Source of the DNA: Nocardia exalbida NBRC 100660
GTDB lineage: Bacteria; Actinomycetota; Actinomycetes; Mycobacteriales; Mycobacteriaceae
Length of the DNA stretch: 64,000 nucleotides
Direction of reading: 5' to 3'
Assembly (NCBI RefSeq): GCF_000308575.1
Contig: NZ_BAFZ01000032.1
Span: 62,001-126,000 of the forward strand
This document shows, piece after piece, positions 45,687 to 51,354 of this stretch. The position numbers and the translations under genes are program-made. The notes under the pieces were generated by a model. It was not told the origin of the DNA. It was given only the letters and a program-made list of their open reading frames with translations, and searched no databases. Numbering within the stretch: position 1 is the stretch's first letter; every line of letters begins with the position of its first letter.

Positions 45687-46106
45687 GCGGTTCGCCCGCC
45701 CCGGGAATCGCCCTGGCGAAACTCCTGCGCGATTCGGGGCGTGCACCGAAATACCCATGGCGCGATGGCCGGTGCGGAGAGTGGCCGGCCCGGTGCCGCC
45801 GAGGGGCGAATCTCGGCGGCACCGGCGTATCCGAACGCGCTGCGGGAGCGCACGCGCCGCCGCGAAGGGAAAGCGCGCCACTCCAGCATAGAGCGATCAA
45901 TGGTCTGGTGCGCGGCGGCGAAGAAGTGCCTGCGACCCGCGGGAAATCATCTCGTGCCGCGTGTGTCGGCCGCGGCACGCCGAATAGTTGGGTGAGATGG
46001 CAAATGAACAGTTTCGCCAGTAGCGGTGGATCGACTATGAATGAGACGTGCCGTTGCCATACGTGATCACTTGTCTGCCATCGACTCTCTCGTGCGGAGA
46101 GCGCTG
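45687..46106. other. Intergenic region with one strong hairpin and no gene seen
   Basis: A 420-base gap. The only clear structure is the 14-pair hairpin at 45790-45825. No tRNA or small gene was recognised. The 3' part (from about 45950) is relatively A/T-rich (GAATAGTTGGGTGAGATGGC) and probably holds the promoter of the next gene. Confidence 0.5.
45790..45825. terminator. Perfect 14-base-pair hairpin downstream of tetR
   Basis: CCGGTGCCGCCGAG pairs with CTCGGCGGCACCGG around an eight-base loop, 104 bases after the tetR stop. There is no U-run. Terminator is the simplest reading; an attenuator or structured RNA is possible. Confidence 0.55.
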
Positions 46107-47690
46107 ATGGTCATCGAACATCCCATCGAGGACGAGGTTACACAGCTGGCGAGGCGGGTCGAGAAGGCCCGTGGACGGCTCGCCTACCAGTTCGATCCGG
46201 CGCTGACCGAGGCGCTGTCGGAGGACGAACTGTATGCCGAACGTGAGCTCGCCGAACGGATTCGCACCCAGGAGCGCGGACAGCGCTGGAAAGAGGCGCA
46301 GGCTGCCGCCGCGGCATCCGACCGCGCCAGGCAGACCACCGAAGCGATCGAGAAGGCCGACATGCGAGACCTCCTGCTCGCCCGCAAGGCGATTGCCGCG
46401 CAACGACGCGAATCCAGCCCGCACGCGAAGCTGGCCTCGCTCTACCGGCATCGGTCCTGGTCGCTGCGCGCGCTGGCCGGTGTCGTCGCGGCGGGCATGC
46501 TGTGGTCGGCGGTCAACGTCCAGCACAACATCGCTCCCGGTGGCGCGACCGATCCGCTGTACTGGTTCAGCTACCTGCTCGAAGGCATGATCAGCGTCTG
46601 CCTGATCATCATCATGATCGGCACCAACAAGGTCGCCGAATGGGGCGTGGTGGACAACCGCCGCCAGGTCGCGACCGCCGAAATGGCCCTGCTGGCCTTG
46701 ACCGTTAGCCTCAACACCTACCCGTACCTGCGCGCGGGCGCCTGGTACGACGCGGCCGTGCACGCCATCGCGCCGGTAATGATCGGTGTCGCGCTGCTTA
46801 TCCACGACGCGGCCAGCGCCCGCTACGGCCTCGCCATCGCCAGGGCCACCGAGCAGGTCCGCGACCTGCCCGACCCGGCCGAGCAGATCCGGCTCACGCT
46901 GCCCCGATACCGGATGCCGGTGGCGCCGGAGGCTCCGGGCATCCCGCACGAGCACGTGATCCCCGACCCGCAGCCCGTCGTGGTGGCGCCCCCGGTGGAG
47001 GTCGTCGACCCGGAGGCGGTGGAGGCCGTCGAAACCAACGGCGCTCAGGTGGAATTCGAAGAGCAGCCCGAGGTCGTGGTGCAGGTCGAGAAGAAGCGGC
47101 CGCCGGTCGAGGCGCCGCGCAAGCCGGTGCTGCCCGAGTCCATCGAAGACCTCGACGCGATGGATGTCTTCCAGACGCGTCCGACGACGCCGGTGAAGGT
47201 CGAGGACACCGACGTCGCGATCGCCGCCAACGGCGCGCCCTCGACCAACGGCAAGAAACTCGTCGCGAGCGAGCCTGTCGCGCCCGCACCGGTTCCGGCG
47301 GCCAAGTCCGAGGACCGGCCGGCCGCGCGGGTGCCCGTCGAAGAGCCCGCCGCGGCGAAGGTGGTCGTCCGGCAGCCGTCCGCGGCCAAGCCGAACACCA
47401 CGGTCTCCGAGGCGGAGGGGCCGACGGCCGAACTCCCGGCAGTCACCCGGCGTCCGTCGGCCGAGGTGAAGAGCGACGGTCCGGCGCCGGAGCCGAAGAA
47501 CGGCAAGGACACTCCCAAGCCCGACGTCGCGCAGCCGCCGACGGCCCGCACCCCGGATATCTACGACACCGGTTCTTTCCGCGTCGCCGACATCCTGGAG
47601 CAGGAACTCGCCGAGTTGCAGGCCGAACGCCGCCGCGCTCGCGCGGCGAGCAGGCAGCGTTCCGCCTCGACAGCGGGCCGCGAGTCCTAG
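46107..47690 (+). CDS. DUF2637/SpdB-like four-helix membrane protein with long disordered tail
   Basis: A 527-residue protein in three parts: a charged, probably coiled-coil N-terminus (1-115; LSEDELYAERELAERIRTQE), four membrane helices (about 119-140, 151-172, 188-205, 213-234) and a Pro/Glu/Lys-rich tail of nearly 290 residues ending in a short basic helix (ILEQELAELQAERRRARAAS). The helical part, with WSAVNVQHNI and YWFSYLLEGMISVCL, resembles DUF2637/SpdB proteins of actinomycete plasmids and integrative elements, which act in conjugal spread. No other transfer gene is near. ATG at 46107 has GGAGA six bases upstream; earlier GTG starts exist. Confidence 0.65.
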   Translation: MVIEHPIEDEVTQLARRVEKARGRLAYQFDPALTEALSEDELYAERELAERIRTQERGQRWKEAQAAAAASDRARQTTEAIEKADMRDLLLARKAIAAQRRESSPHAKLASLYRHRSWSLRALAGVVAAGMLWSAVNVQHNIAPGGATDPLYWFSYLLEGMISVCLIIIMIGTNKVAEWGVVDNRRQVATAEMALLALTVSLNTYPYLRAGAWYDAAVHAIAPVMIGVALLIHDAASARYGLAIARATEQVRDLPDPAEQIRLTLPRYRMPVAPEAPGIPHEHVIPDPQPVVVAPPVEVVDPEAVEAVETNGAQVEFEEQPEVVVQVEKKRPPVEAPRKPVLPESIEDLDAMDVFQTRPTTPVKVEDTDVAIAANGAPSTNGKKLVASEPVAPAPVPAAKSEDRPAARVPVEEPAAAKVVVRQPSAAKPNTTVSEAEGPTAELPAVTRRPSAEVKSDGPAPEPKNGKDTPKPDVAQPPTARTPDIYDTGSFRVADILEQELAELQAERRRARAASRQRSASTAGRES

Positions 47691-47742: not shown

Positions 47743-47885
47743 GGCGTCTTCGGGCACCGCTCGGGATCGGGTCGCCGCTGTGGTCAGGAGGCCGCTCACG
47801 GCGTCGGCGGACCGACTGCTGAGAGCGGATCTGCCGAGGGCAGCGAGGGAGCGGTTCGGCGCCGCGTGTGCGGCACCGTGGAGCC

Positions 47886-48491
47886 ATGGCTCACGATGAC
47901 AAGACCCCGATGTTCAGCTGGCGGGCGCGAGAACAACTGCTCAGCCGCCGCATAGTCGTACTCGACGGCGCGCTCGACGACGACAACGGGACGCTGCTGA
48001 TGACCCAGCTGCTCACACTCGCCGCCGAAGACCCGGACGCGGGCATCTCGCTGTGGATCCATTCGCCGGGCGGATCGGTTCCCTCGATGCTCGCCATCCG
48101 CGACGTGATGCGGCTGGTGCCGTGTGAGGTCTCCACGCTCGCGCTCGGATTGGCTTGCAGCGCGGGACAGTTCCTGCTGTCGTCGGGGAGCAAGGGCAGG
48201 CGTTTCGCCCTGCCGCACGCCCGGGTGCTGATGCACCAGGGATCGGCGGGCATCGGCGGCACCGCCGTCGACGTCGAGGTCCAGGCCGACGATCTGCGCT
48301 ACACCGTCGACACGGTGCTCGGCATCATCGCCGAGGACACCGGCCAGCCGTTCGACCGGATCTACGAGGATTCGCTGCACGACCGCTGGTTCACCGCCAC
48401 GCAAGCCAAGGAATACGGCTTCATCGACCACATCGTCGACTCGTTCGGGCAGATCGTCCCGCAACGCCAGCGAATCGGGATCTCGGCATGA
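47886..48491 (+). CDS. clpP: ClpP-type serine protease subunit with intact Ser-His motif
   Basis: A 201-residue ClpP subunit. Oxyanion loop HSPGGSV is normal, nucleophile Ser lies in GLACSAGQFLL (family G-x-A-x-S-x-G), catalytic His in ARVLMHQG, and Asp in the region YEDSLHDRWFTA; KEYGFIDHIV closes the handle. It should form a heptameric ring with the next gene's product and degrade proteins with a Clp ATPase. ATG at 47886 is used. It differs much from ClpP1/ClpP2 of the housekeeping operon, and no clpX or trigger factor gene is adjacent, so this is an accessory clpP pair. The second clpP starts 55 bases later. Confidence 0.88.
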   Translation: MAHDDKTPMFSWRAREQLLSRRIVVLDGALDDDNGTLLMTQLLTLAAEDPDAGISLWIHSPGGSVPSMLAIRDVMRLVPCEVSTLALGLACSAGQFLLSSGSKGRRFALPHARVLMHQGSAGIGGTAVDVEVQADDLRYTVDTVLGIIAEDTGQPFDRIYEDSLHDRWFTATQAKEYGFIDHIVDSFGQIVPQRQRIGISA

Positions 48492-48546
48492 TGCGGCAGC
48501 GCAGCGTGACCACGGAGGGCCCCGCTCGTGCCGGAAGGGACACATT

Positions 48547-49140
48547 GTGAGCACCTACACCATTCCCAATGTGATCGCGCAGCATCCGCGCGGCGGCGAG
48601 CGGATCACCGACATCTACTCCCACCTGCTCGCCGAGCGCATCGTCTACCTCGGCACGCCCATCGACTCGGGCGTGGCCAACGCGCTCATCGCGCAGCTGC
48701 TGCACCTGGAATCGGAGAGCCCCGAGCAGGAGATCAACCTCTACATCAACTGCGAGGGCGGGGATCTGCCCTCTATGCTCGCGGTGTACGACACCATGCA
48801 GCACATCCAGTCACCTGTGCAGACCACCTGCGTCGGTCAGGCGATCGCGGTCGGTGCGGTGTTGCTGGCGGGCGGCGAGCCCGGCCGCCGCGCCATGCTT
48901 CCGCACGCCAGGGCGGTACTGCACCAACCCGCCGCGCGCGGGCAGGGAACGATCCCCGATCTGATCCTGCAGGCCGACGAGCTGGTGCGGATGCGGGCGG
49001 AGATCGAGTCGATCCTGTCGCGGCACACCGGGCAGACGGTGGAGCGGCTGCGGCGCGACACCGACCGCGACCGGGTCTTCACCGCCTCGGCCGCGGTCGA
49101 ATACGGCCTCGTCGATCAGGTCCTGGGGCGGCGGGACTAG
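48547..49140 (+). CDS. ClpP-like subunit lacking the catalytic serine (pseudoprotease)
   Basis: A 197-residue ClpP-fold protein. Where active subunits read GQAASMGA this one reads GQAIAVGA, so the nucleophile is Ala101 (codon GCG, 48847-48849). The oxyanion loop is also changed: INCEGGD instead of INSPGGS. His (AVLHQP) and Asp (RRDTDRDRVFTA) positions are kept, and the rest is well conserved, so it is under selection as a structural or gating subunit. GTG at 48547 is the start. It probably pairs with the upstream active ClpP, as ClpR does in cyanobacteria. Its stop shares CTAG with the opposing regulator's stop. Confidence 0.87.
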   Translation: MSTYTIPNVIAQHPRGGERITDIYSHLLAERIVYLGTPIDSGVANALIAQLLHLESESPEQEINLYINCEGGDLPSMLAVYDTMQHIQSPVQTTCVGQAIAVGAVLLAGGEPGRRAMLPHARAVLHQPAARGQGTIPDLILQADELVRMRAEIESILSRHTGQTVERLRRDTDRDRVFTASAAVEYGLVDQVLGRRD

Positions 49141-49517
49141 GCCGCCAGGGCCATGAGCGTGGGCCCGGCGCCGGAACGCGGCGCCGACCGCTGCAAGAAG
49201 GCGAACCGGCGACGGGCGCGGAGTTCGTCCGCCACCTGGCCGGTGAGCTCACCCAGCGTGGTGCCGAGAGATCCGGCCAGGGCGGCGATCATCTCGCTCG
49301 ACGGCTCCTTGCGGCCTCGCTCCACCTCGGACAGGTACTGCGGGGAAATGCCTGCCCGCCGAGCGGTTTCGGTCAGTGTCTCGCTGCGGTCCTGCCGCAG
49401 GGTGCGCAACTGCTCGCCGAGCACCTCGCGCCACAGGGGTTCCGGCGGCGTCGGCGGGGCCTGCGGCCGGTCGTCGCGTCCACCGGGAATCGAGTGAAGT
49501 CTCGGGTGCTCGCTCAT
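49137..49517 (-). CDS. XRE-type regulator of clp genes (PopR/ClgR-like) with LAA tail
   Basis: A 126-residue protein with one XRE helix-turn-helix at about 35-90 (GEQLRTLRQDRSETLTETAR, RAGISPQYLSEVERGRKEPSSEMI) and the end LMALAA. ClgR and PopR of actinomycetes have the same helix-turn-helix and an Ala-Ala-type C-terminus that makes them substrates of Clp protease (known of the family). Lying tail to tail with the clpP pair, it likely activates those genes and is itself degraded by Clp. Stops overlap in the tetranucleotide CTAG. ATG at 49517 has TACGCT nine bases before it, so the messenger may be leaderless. Confidence 0.85.
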   Translation of the reverse strand: MSEHPRLHSIPGGRDDRPQAPPTPPEPLWREVLGEQLRTLRQDRSETLTETARRAGISPQYLSEVERGRKEPSSEMIAALAGSLGTTLGELTGQVADELRARRRFAFLQRSAPRSGAGPTLMALAA

Positions 49518-49647: not shown

Positions 49648-51354
49648 ATGCCCCCGAATTCGAAGGTCTCCGATCTCAAGCCGCGCAGCCGCGACGTCAC
49701 CGATGGCCTGGAGAAGACCGCCGCCCGAGGGATGTTGCGCGCGGTCGGCATGGGCGACGAGGACTGGGAGAAGCCGCAGATCGGCGTGGCCTCCTCGTGG
49801 AACGAGATCACTCCCTGCAATCTGTCCCTGGACCGGCTCGCCCGAGGCTGTAAGGACGGCGTCTTCTCCGGCGGCGGCTTCCCGATGCAGTTCGGCACCA
49901 TCTCGGTCTCCGACGGCATCTCCATGGGTCACGAGGGAATGCATTTCTCCTTGGTTTCGCGTGAGGTGATCGCCGACAGCGTCGAGACGGTGATGCAGGC
50001 CGAGCGGCTCGACGGTTCGGTGCTGCTGGCCGGTTGCGACAAATCACTGCCCGGGATGCTGATGGCCGCGGCCCGGCTGAACCTGTCGAGCGTGTTCCTG
50101 TACGCGGGGTCGATTCTGCCCGGCATCGCCAAGCTCTCCGACGGCAGCGAGCGCGAGGTGACGATCATCGACGCGTTCGAAGCGGTCGGCGCCTGCGCCC
50201 GCGGGCTGATGAGCCGCGAGGACGTGGCCGCCATCGAACGGGCGATCTGTCCCGGCGAGGGCGCCTGCGGCGGCATGTACACCGCCAACACCATGGCCAG
50301 CGCGGCCGAAGCGCTGGGCATGTCGCTGCCCGGCAGCGCGGCGCCGCCCGCGACCGATCGTCGTCGCGACGGTTACGCCCGGCGCAGCGGCGAGGCCGTG
50401 GTCGAGTTGATCCGGCAGGGCATCACTCCCTCCGACATCCTCACCAAACCAGCCTTCGAGAACGCGATCGCGGTCGTCATGGCGTTCGGCGGCTCCACCA
50501 ACGCGGTGCTGCACCTGCTGGCCATCGCGCACGAGGCGAACGTCGATCTGTCGCTGGACGATTTCGCGCGCGTCGGCCGCCGGGTGCCGCACCTCGCCGA
50601 CGTCAAGCCCTTCGGTAAGCACGTGATGACCGACGTGGACCGGATCGGCGGCGTGCCGGTCATGATGAAGGCTTTGCTCGATGCCGGTTTGCTGCACGGC
50701 GACTGCCTGACCGTGACGGGAAAGACGGTGGCGCAGAACCTGGCCGACATCACTCCGCCCGATCCCGACGGCAAGGTGATCCGGGCGATGGCGTCGCCGA
50801 TTCATCCGACCGGTGGCATCACCATCCTGTCCGGTTCGCTCGCGCCGGATGGCGCCGTCGTCAAGTCGGCGGGCTTCGACTCCGACGTATTCACCGGCAC
50901 GGCCCGGGTTTTCGACCGGGAACGAGCGGCGATGGACGCGCTCGAGGACGGCACGATCGCGGCGGGTGATGTGGTCGTCATCCGGTACGAGGGCCCGAAA
51001 GGCGGCCCCGGGATGCGTGAGATGCTGGCCATCACCGCCGCCATCAAAGGCGCGGGACTGGGCAAGGATGTCCTGCTGCTCACCGACGGACGCTTCTCCG
51101 GCGGCACCACAGGCCTGTGTGTCGGGCACGTCGCACCGGAAGCCGTGGACGGCGGCCCGATCGCCTTCGTGCGCCACGGCGACCGGATCCGCCTCGACGT
51201 CGCCGCGGGCACCCTCGACCTGCTGGTCGACGCCGAAGAACTCGCCCGCCGTCGCGAAGGCTGGAAACCCCTGCCACCCCGCTACACCCGCGGTGTCCTG
51301 GCCAAATACACGAAGCTGGTGGGCTCGGCCTCGATCGGGGCCGTCTGCGACTGA
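49648..51354 (+). CDS. ilvD: Dihydroxy-acid dehydratase
   Basis: A 568-residue Fe-S enzyme of valine, isoleucine and CoA precursor synthesis that dehydrates dihydroxy acids to 2-keto acids. Cluster cysteines are in TPCNLS (Cys57), AGCDKS (Cys130) and [11 protein letters not shown] (Cys207). C-terminal [19 protein letters not shown] is the metal and substrate loop. Length and end match actinobacterial IlvD. ATG at 49648 follows GGGAA. It stands alone and is divergent from the clp regulator; no other ilv gene is near. A hairpin at 51429-51468 separates it from the next, convergent gene. Confidence 0.96.

Follow-up and report, generated by a model that had tools for sequence, protein, structure and literature searches.

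The 64,000-nucleotide stretch of the Nocardia exalbida NBRC 100660 genome analysed in this study, hereafter called the window, carries a clpP3-clpP4-popR module in the form found in Nocardia. The module likely encodes a backup Clp protease, with clpPa as the cutting first subunit and the Ser-less clpPb as the second subunit, which would dock the unfoldase. The identity of the module, as read from the sequence, rests on the gene order, the promoter box, and the tail of the regulator, which together bear out the resemblance to clpP3-clpP4-popR pointed out in a preliminary description of the locus. In the 191 modules compared, wherever the catalytic triad has been lost, the loss is on the docking-type subunit and never on the cutting one, often at a different residue. 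The observation made in the preliminary description is confirmed, and its interpretation is partly supported.

The two protease genes lie on the plus strand. clpPa (clpP3-like; 47886..48491) encodes a 201-residue ClpP subunit with an intact triad, and clpPb (clpP4-like; 48547..49140) starts with GTG and encodes a 197-residue ClpP without the catalytic Ser. In the profile search, both proteins scored far over the cut-off of the PF00574 family (182.6 bits for clpPa and 223.5 bits for clpPb). The motifs SPGG, GLACSAGQ, LMHQ, and LHDRW were read directly in clpPa, and Ser92, His117, and Asp166 are all present. clpPa lacks the ClpP2-type N-terminal axial loop, and Mycobacterium tuberculosis ClpP1 chains (e.g., 4u0g_H) are among its high-ranking PDB matches. 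clpPb carries this N-terminal loop, reads CEGG at residues 69–72 of the oxyanion loop and GQAIAVGA with Ala101 at the position of the nucleophile, and retains His126 and Asp175. It therefore has a ClpP fold lacking catalytic residues, as a ClpR does, and its Ser-His-Asp triad is incomplete. The structure predicted for clpPb (pLDDT 87.6) has the usual ClpP fold, with a TM score of about 0.9 to the solved ClpPs, and is silent on rings. The product of the third gene (49137..49517, minus strand) is an XRE regulator of 126 residues that belongs to the ClgR/PopR family, has HTH_31 and HTH_3 domains, and ends in LMALAA. The stop of this gene overlaps the end of clpPb by 4 nt, and the tail-to-tail arrangement is therefore right. 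All of these readings agree with the preliminary description, which had noted SPGG and the catalytic Ser in the first ClpP, Ala101 and CEGG with the His and Asp kept in the second, and the convergent regulator ending in LMALAA.

The genome contains four ClpP matches, namely clpPa, clpPb, and a pair on another contig that we take as the housekeeping pair; the pair in the window was thus correctly described as accessory. A Clp ATPase gene was found neither on the contig of the module nor beside the module. In the rest of the genome, one Clp ATPase match is close to the housekeeping pair, and three larger frames of the Clp-ATPase type are located elsewhere. Directly upstream of the module is a 549-residue frame (46041–47690) with no Pfam or NCBIfam match, and ilvD, for dihydroxy-acid dehydratase (49648–51354), starts divergently from the regulator gene, 130 nt apart.

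On which subunit does the loss fall in other genomes? Surveys of 296 genomes of the phylum and 394 genomes of the class, together with close-relative and plasmid loci, provided 191 complete modules, with some genomes shared between the two surveys and some survey genomes possibly of the same species as other loci. The first-subunit triad is intact in 191 of the 191 modules, and the second-subunit triad is lost in 156 and intact in 35. The altered second-subunit triads read AHD (95 modules), SGD (16), GHD (13), EHH (5), EHN (5), SHN (4), SHA (3), WHT (3), GHE (2), and SHS (2), with ADD, GHQ, WHD, SDD, AQD, FHN, SGE, and SHH occurring once each. The residue lost varies by lineage: Ser in Nocardia and its kin, His in the Streptomyces-type modules (17, one of them Streptomyces by name and the rest placed by likeness), and Asp in others. 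The class survey alone is less biased and gave the same picture, with the second subunit lost in 70/105 modules and the first intact in 105/105, among matches kept at E <= 1e-62 (111/394 genomes), a threshold that may miss diverged modules. Before the count of 191, the loci L001, L091, L214, L217, L218, and L219 were dropped as presumed housekeeping pairs, as was L074, the first gene of which is interrupted by unrelated sequence where the contig begins, as read by eye. L007 and L161 have no readable partner, and those matches among L104–L121 that lack an upstream partner represent lone ClpPs rather than modules.

In the housekeeping control of 90 class pairs, ClpP1 is intact in 90/90 and ClpP2 in 88/90; this sample is non-random, consisting of the 30 best matches, mostly from the own family, and 60 chosen pairs, mostly from module-carrying genomes, and its threshold (E <= 1e-80 to the own ClpP2) was reached by 285/394 genomes. 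The two exceptions, both from Actinomycetes (L284 and L285), have ClpP2 triads reading TQE and WHD next to an intact ClpP1, so that here, too, it is ClpP2 that shows the loss.

The dead subunit is not required, since 35/191 second subunits are intact and three Nocardia genomes (L321, L322, and L323) have, in place of the Ser-less module, a version whose triad is intact and which matches clpPb at 62%. Loss of Ser as the rule of the whole module was likewise rejected, considering these 35 intact triads and the several lineages that lost His or Asp instead. Outside the class, three loci of one family (L106, L108, and L116; f29) have Ala for Asp instead of a Ser or His loss, and their regulators also end in AA. 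The module is also present on replicons listed as plasmids (L085–L088) from Streptomyces fungicidicus, Embleya (a 5.7 Mb linear record), Tsukamurella tyrosinosolvens, and Prescottella equi, and may therefore move between genomes.

The number of losses was counted on two trees. The first was calculated from 149 concatenated pairs, six of which are housekeeping outgroups, with the triad of the second subunit and the nearby columns excluded, and the second from the first subunit alone. The tree includes 17 of the loci L005–L068 and was made by a quick method without bootstrap, with 39/146 inner branches drawn open. When regain is disallowed, the concatenated tree has seven losses and the first-subunit tree eight. 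These numbers become six and seven, respectively, when branches below 80 are collapsed, and five and four at a cut-off of 95, which lumps losses sharing no residue. When regain is allowed, the minimum numbers of changes are six and seven, respectively. Every loss event on both trees falls on the second subunit, and the two-sided sign test for seven losses all in one partner gives p = 0.016. The loss of different residues—Ser, His, or Asp—is a separate argument for independent events.

Judged by the clpPb protein, the window is closest to Nocardia arthritidis and related species (best 80 of 475 matches). In these 80 relatives, position 101 is Ala in 73, Gly in 7, and Ser in none, within a set that was retrieved with the Ser-less protein itself and is biased towards the Ser-less type. 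Across the 81 sequences, including that of the window, 77 have CEGG and 4 have SEGG as the oxyanion tetrapeptide. Among the 120 protein clusters nearest clpPb, the triads are AHD in 109, EHD in 5, GHD in 3, and SHD, MHD, and AQD in one each. The lone Ser belongs to P0110 (SHD), and therefore the Ser-less state is not absolutely fixed. The 120 clusters nearest the second subunit of S. fungicidicus read SGD in 118 cases and SAD and SHD in one each, the last being an unusual protein of 331 residues in which two ClpP stretches occur. Judging from these triads, the Streptomyces-type second subunits kept Ser and lost the catalytic His. The preliminary description had left open whether Ala is fixed at this position; the alignment with the relatives reveals that the Ser loss is common to the Nocardia, Actinomadura, and Catenulispora relatives, and that the Streptomyces-type lost His instead. 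A sequencing error at position 101 was rejected, because Ser is present in 0/80 of the relatives (best 80 of 475) and in 1/120 of the nearest clusters.

The loss of Ser is accompanied by a rebuilt oxyanion loop in 104 modules (103 xEGG and one CAGG), which were picked by that loop; Ser is lost in 104/104, His126 is kept in 103, and Asp175 is kept in 104. Cys69 was considered as a new nucleophile and rejected, as Ser occupies this position in 6/104 of these modules and Cys is hence not required. As compared with 13 Nocardia relatives, the dN/dS values are 0.038–0.154 for clpPb and 0.019–0.138 for clpPa, and the dead clpPb gene is under strong purifying selection.

What, then, is the role of clpPb? 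In a regular-expression count, the axial-loop motif is present in 185/191 second subunits and 0/191 first subunits, and the own housekeeping pair is split alike, with the loop in ClpP2 and not in ClpP1. The docking Tyr, at position 66 in clpPb, is kept in all 190 of the second subunits tabulated, and Trp occupies this position in 107 of the 108 first subunits that partner a Ser-to-Ala/Gly subunit. Because purifying selection acts on the clpPb gene and its product retains an axial loop of the ClpP2 type, we read this product as the predicted ATPase-docking ring, and clpPa as the predicted cutting ring. The docking claim is weakened by the residue at position 86 of the docking pocket, which is aromatic in E. 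coli; it is His86 in clpPb, and His in 70/108 of the Ser-to-Ala/Gly second subunits. The Streptomyces ClpP2 that was mutated has Tyr, also aromatic, at the counterpart of this position.

The known actinobacterial enzymes provide the background for this reading. In M. tuberculosis, the S110A substitution of ClpP2 is reported to be tolerated, and ClpP2 serves as the chaperone scaffold (PMC9067928). In Streptomyces, ClpP2 S131A retains full activity, and ClpP2 docks the ATPases (PMC9765437). As the active site of the docking ring is already dispensable in the ClpP1P2 of both (PMC9067928, PMC4416901, PMC9765437), the repeated loss of the second active site would be possible.

The preliminary description had instead proposed a mixed ring with half of the active sites. 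In this arrangement, the live and dead subunits would alternate within each ring, diluting the sites rather than splitting docking from cutting, and a precedent is found in the cyanobacterial ClpP3/R core, the mixed rings of which have three ClpP3 to four ClpR (PMC4673316). The fold match of clpPb is compatible with either arrangement. However, the data do not favor mixed rings over two stacked rings of one subunit each, as reported for mycobacterial ClpP1P2 (PMC9067928, PMC8182300), and the distribution of the axial loop between the second and first subunits, split as in the own housekeeping pair, also argues against them. We therefore consider mixed rings unlikely, and prefer the two stacked rings with separate docking and cutting. 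A further and quite speculative idea concerns the former active site of clpPb. Because the rebuilt-loop modules have all lost Ser and yet keep Asp175, and all but one keep His126, this site might function as a non-cleaving peptide-binding pocket, which detects products or unfolded cargo and controls the gating of the live ring, and half-dead cores might have been repeatedly selected for their asymmetry.

Next, we consider how the pair may be switched on. The published PopR box is TCTGCC-3N-GGCGAATCTGCC-3N-GGCAGA (PMC9775585). The PopR-type double box ACTGCTGAGAGCGGATCTGCCGAGGGCAGC (47815..47844, plus strand), located 41 nt upstream of clpPa, is the best match to it on both strands of the whole window (19/24). 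Scores of 16 or higher occur within the 250 nt upstream of 158/190 modules, the other 32 being lower, as compared to 15/950 dinucleotide shuffles and 1/90 housekeeping clpP1 promoters. In most Nocardia modules, the box starts about 71 nt before the start codon and scores 15–19/24, and in the Streptomyces-type modules (17/17) it scores 22–24/24 and starts 78–205 nt before the start codon. With up to one mismatch, a Nocardia pattern finds exactly one site in 53/59 Nocardia genomes, and the reversed pattern finds none in the 59; the pattern was built from Nocardia module promoters, which partly explains why it is found beside the module but not why it is unique within the genome. In 49 of these 53 genomes, the single site precedes clpPb by 638–999 nt within one contig. 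Three others have the site and clpPb on different contigs, and in the remaining one, which is 78% complete, no clpPb was found. The site is absent in six of the 59 genomes: in five, clpPb gave no match, and the sixth has the intact module version. In the N. exalbida genome, 47815–47844 is the sole site with the genus pattern at up to one mismatch.

A regulator was found in 178 modules; it ends in AA in 170 of them and lacks this ending in 8, and the ending is ALAA in 51 and YALAA in 14. For 13/191 modules, no regulator was found in the fetched stretch. The own tmRNA tag, ADSHQREYALAA, also ends in YALAA, which supports the proposal of the preliminary description that the ALAA tail is a likely Clp signal. 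The window's regulator scores 63 bits against the ClgR model (cut-off 170), 49.7 bits to the module regulator of S. fungicidicus, and 54.3 bits to the own ClgR-like protein, and its sequence alone does not distinguish between PopR and ClgR. The gene for the own ClgR-like protein is located elsewhere (L311); this protein scores 135 bits against the cut-off of 170 and ends in LVLVKGV, without Ala-Ala. A ClgR box in the own housekeeping promoter was considered as a contrast and set aside, because the exact match to GTTCGC-5N-GCG in the housekeeping stretch sits inside the gene.

Which protease would degrade the regulator? The preliminary description had favored self-feedback, in which the clpPa-clpPb protease degrades its own activator and thereby limits its own amount. 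The adjacency of the regulator and its ALAA tail, resembling the end of the own tmRNA tag, fit this proposal. In the known Streptomyces circuit, however, PopR is degraded by the housekeeping ClpP1P2 (PMC9765437), and in cells without working ClpP1P2, PopR is spared and ClpP3/ClpP4 are made (PMC9765437, PMC12607617). Cross-control by ClpP1P2 is therefore more likely, and self-feedback appears decidedly doubtful. Considering this circuit and the shared parts, clpPa-clpPb of Nocardia likely serves as a backup protease that is triggered by failure of the housekeeping one, under a switch with a single target.

It is very unlikely that the dead subunit instead pairs with the housekeeping ClpP as a decoy or inhibitor, like the Streptomyces hawaiiensis ClpP-ADEP with ClpP1 and ClpP2. 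Cross-pairing of an extra ClpP with the housekeeping ClpPs is documented (PMC12607617), but a clpP gene is directly upstream in 109 of the 110 class-survey loci, the exception (L161) being at a contig end, and the upstream subunit is intact in 191/191 modules, behind the same box. Finally, a decaying clpPb gene that tolerates the loss since it does little, as the wide variation of the triad residues between lineages might indicate, is disfavored as extremely improbable, and the pseudogene reading was rejected, because the dN/dS of clpPb (0.04–0.15) is near that of its live partner (0.02–0.14), no internal stop occurs in any survey match listed, and a clpPb match at E <= 1e-75 is present in 107/118 Nocardia genomes, with the triads of these 107 read for the fetched loci.

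We propose the following mechanism for the backup Clp protease. The housekeeping ClpP1P2 would keep the regulator scarce via its ALAA tail. When ClpP1P2 is blocked or overloaded, the regulator would accumulate, bind its one box, and switch clpPa-clpPb on. The two subunits would then form one complex, probably of two stacked rings with seven subunits each, and the dead clpPb ring would bind ClpX or ClpC, because it keeps the axial loop and the docking Tyr.

The bare fact of a dead clpP allele is already known. In one sentence pointing to fig. S4, d'Andrea et al. (2022) noted for Nocardia asteroides and Streptomyces coelicolor a clpP allele in which critical residues are missing (PMC9067928); the portion of that text available to us gives no residue, gene neighborhood, PopR box, loss count, or one-sidedness. 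Similarly, the available portions of PMC9765437, PMC12607617, PMC9775585, PMC8182300, PMC4416901, and PMC4673316 make no mention of the ClpP4 triad. Within our literature searches, we found no earlier account of losses confined to one subunit, of their recurrence at different residues, of the connection with the PopR module, or of the single-box switch, and to that extent these points are new.

Must both rings of a two-subunit Clp cut? This has so far been argued from Ser-to-Ala mutants in M. tuberculosis and Streptomyces. The 6–8 loss events on the trees (4–5 when only the strongest branches are trusted) are natural replicates of that mutant experiment. They make the one-cutting-ring rule directly testable in laboratory Streptomyces, and indicate the subunit at which an inhibitor of the backup protease should be aimed.

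How does the module compare with the known systems? Like cyanobacterial and plastid ClpR (PMC4673316), clpPb is a ClpP-fold subunit without catalytic residues that would work with a live ClpP. The reported ClpR sits in mixed rings (PMC4673316), and its likeness to clpPb is one of fold and missing catalytic residues. The division of labor would resemble that of the M. tuberculosis and Streptomyces ClpP1P2, in which one subunit cuts, the other docks the ATPase, and the Ser of the docking ring is dispensable (PMC9067928, PMC4416901, PMC9765437). In contrast, both natural triads are intact in those enzymes, and the docking-type subunit here has lost its triad. The closest likeness in organization is to the clpP3-clpP4-popR of Streptomyces (S. 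lividans), with two adjacent co-directional clpP genes and the regulator beside them (PMC9765437, PMC9775585), the same double box upstream, and the Ala-Ala end of the regulator, all in addition to the housekeeping clpP1P2. The second subunit lost Ser in Nocardia, whereas the Streptomyces-type subunit lost His (SGD in 16 and SGE in 1 of 17). As the Streptomyces-type second subunits lack the catalytic His, their triads suggest that the Streptomyces model ClpP3P4 is itself a one-ring cutter.
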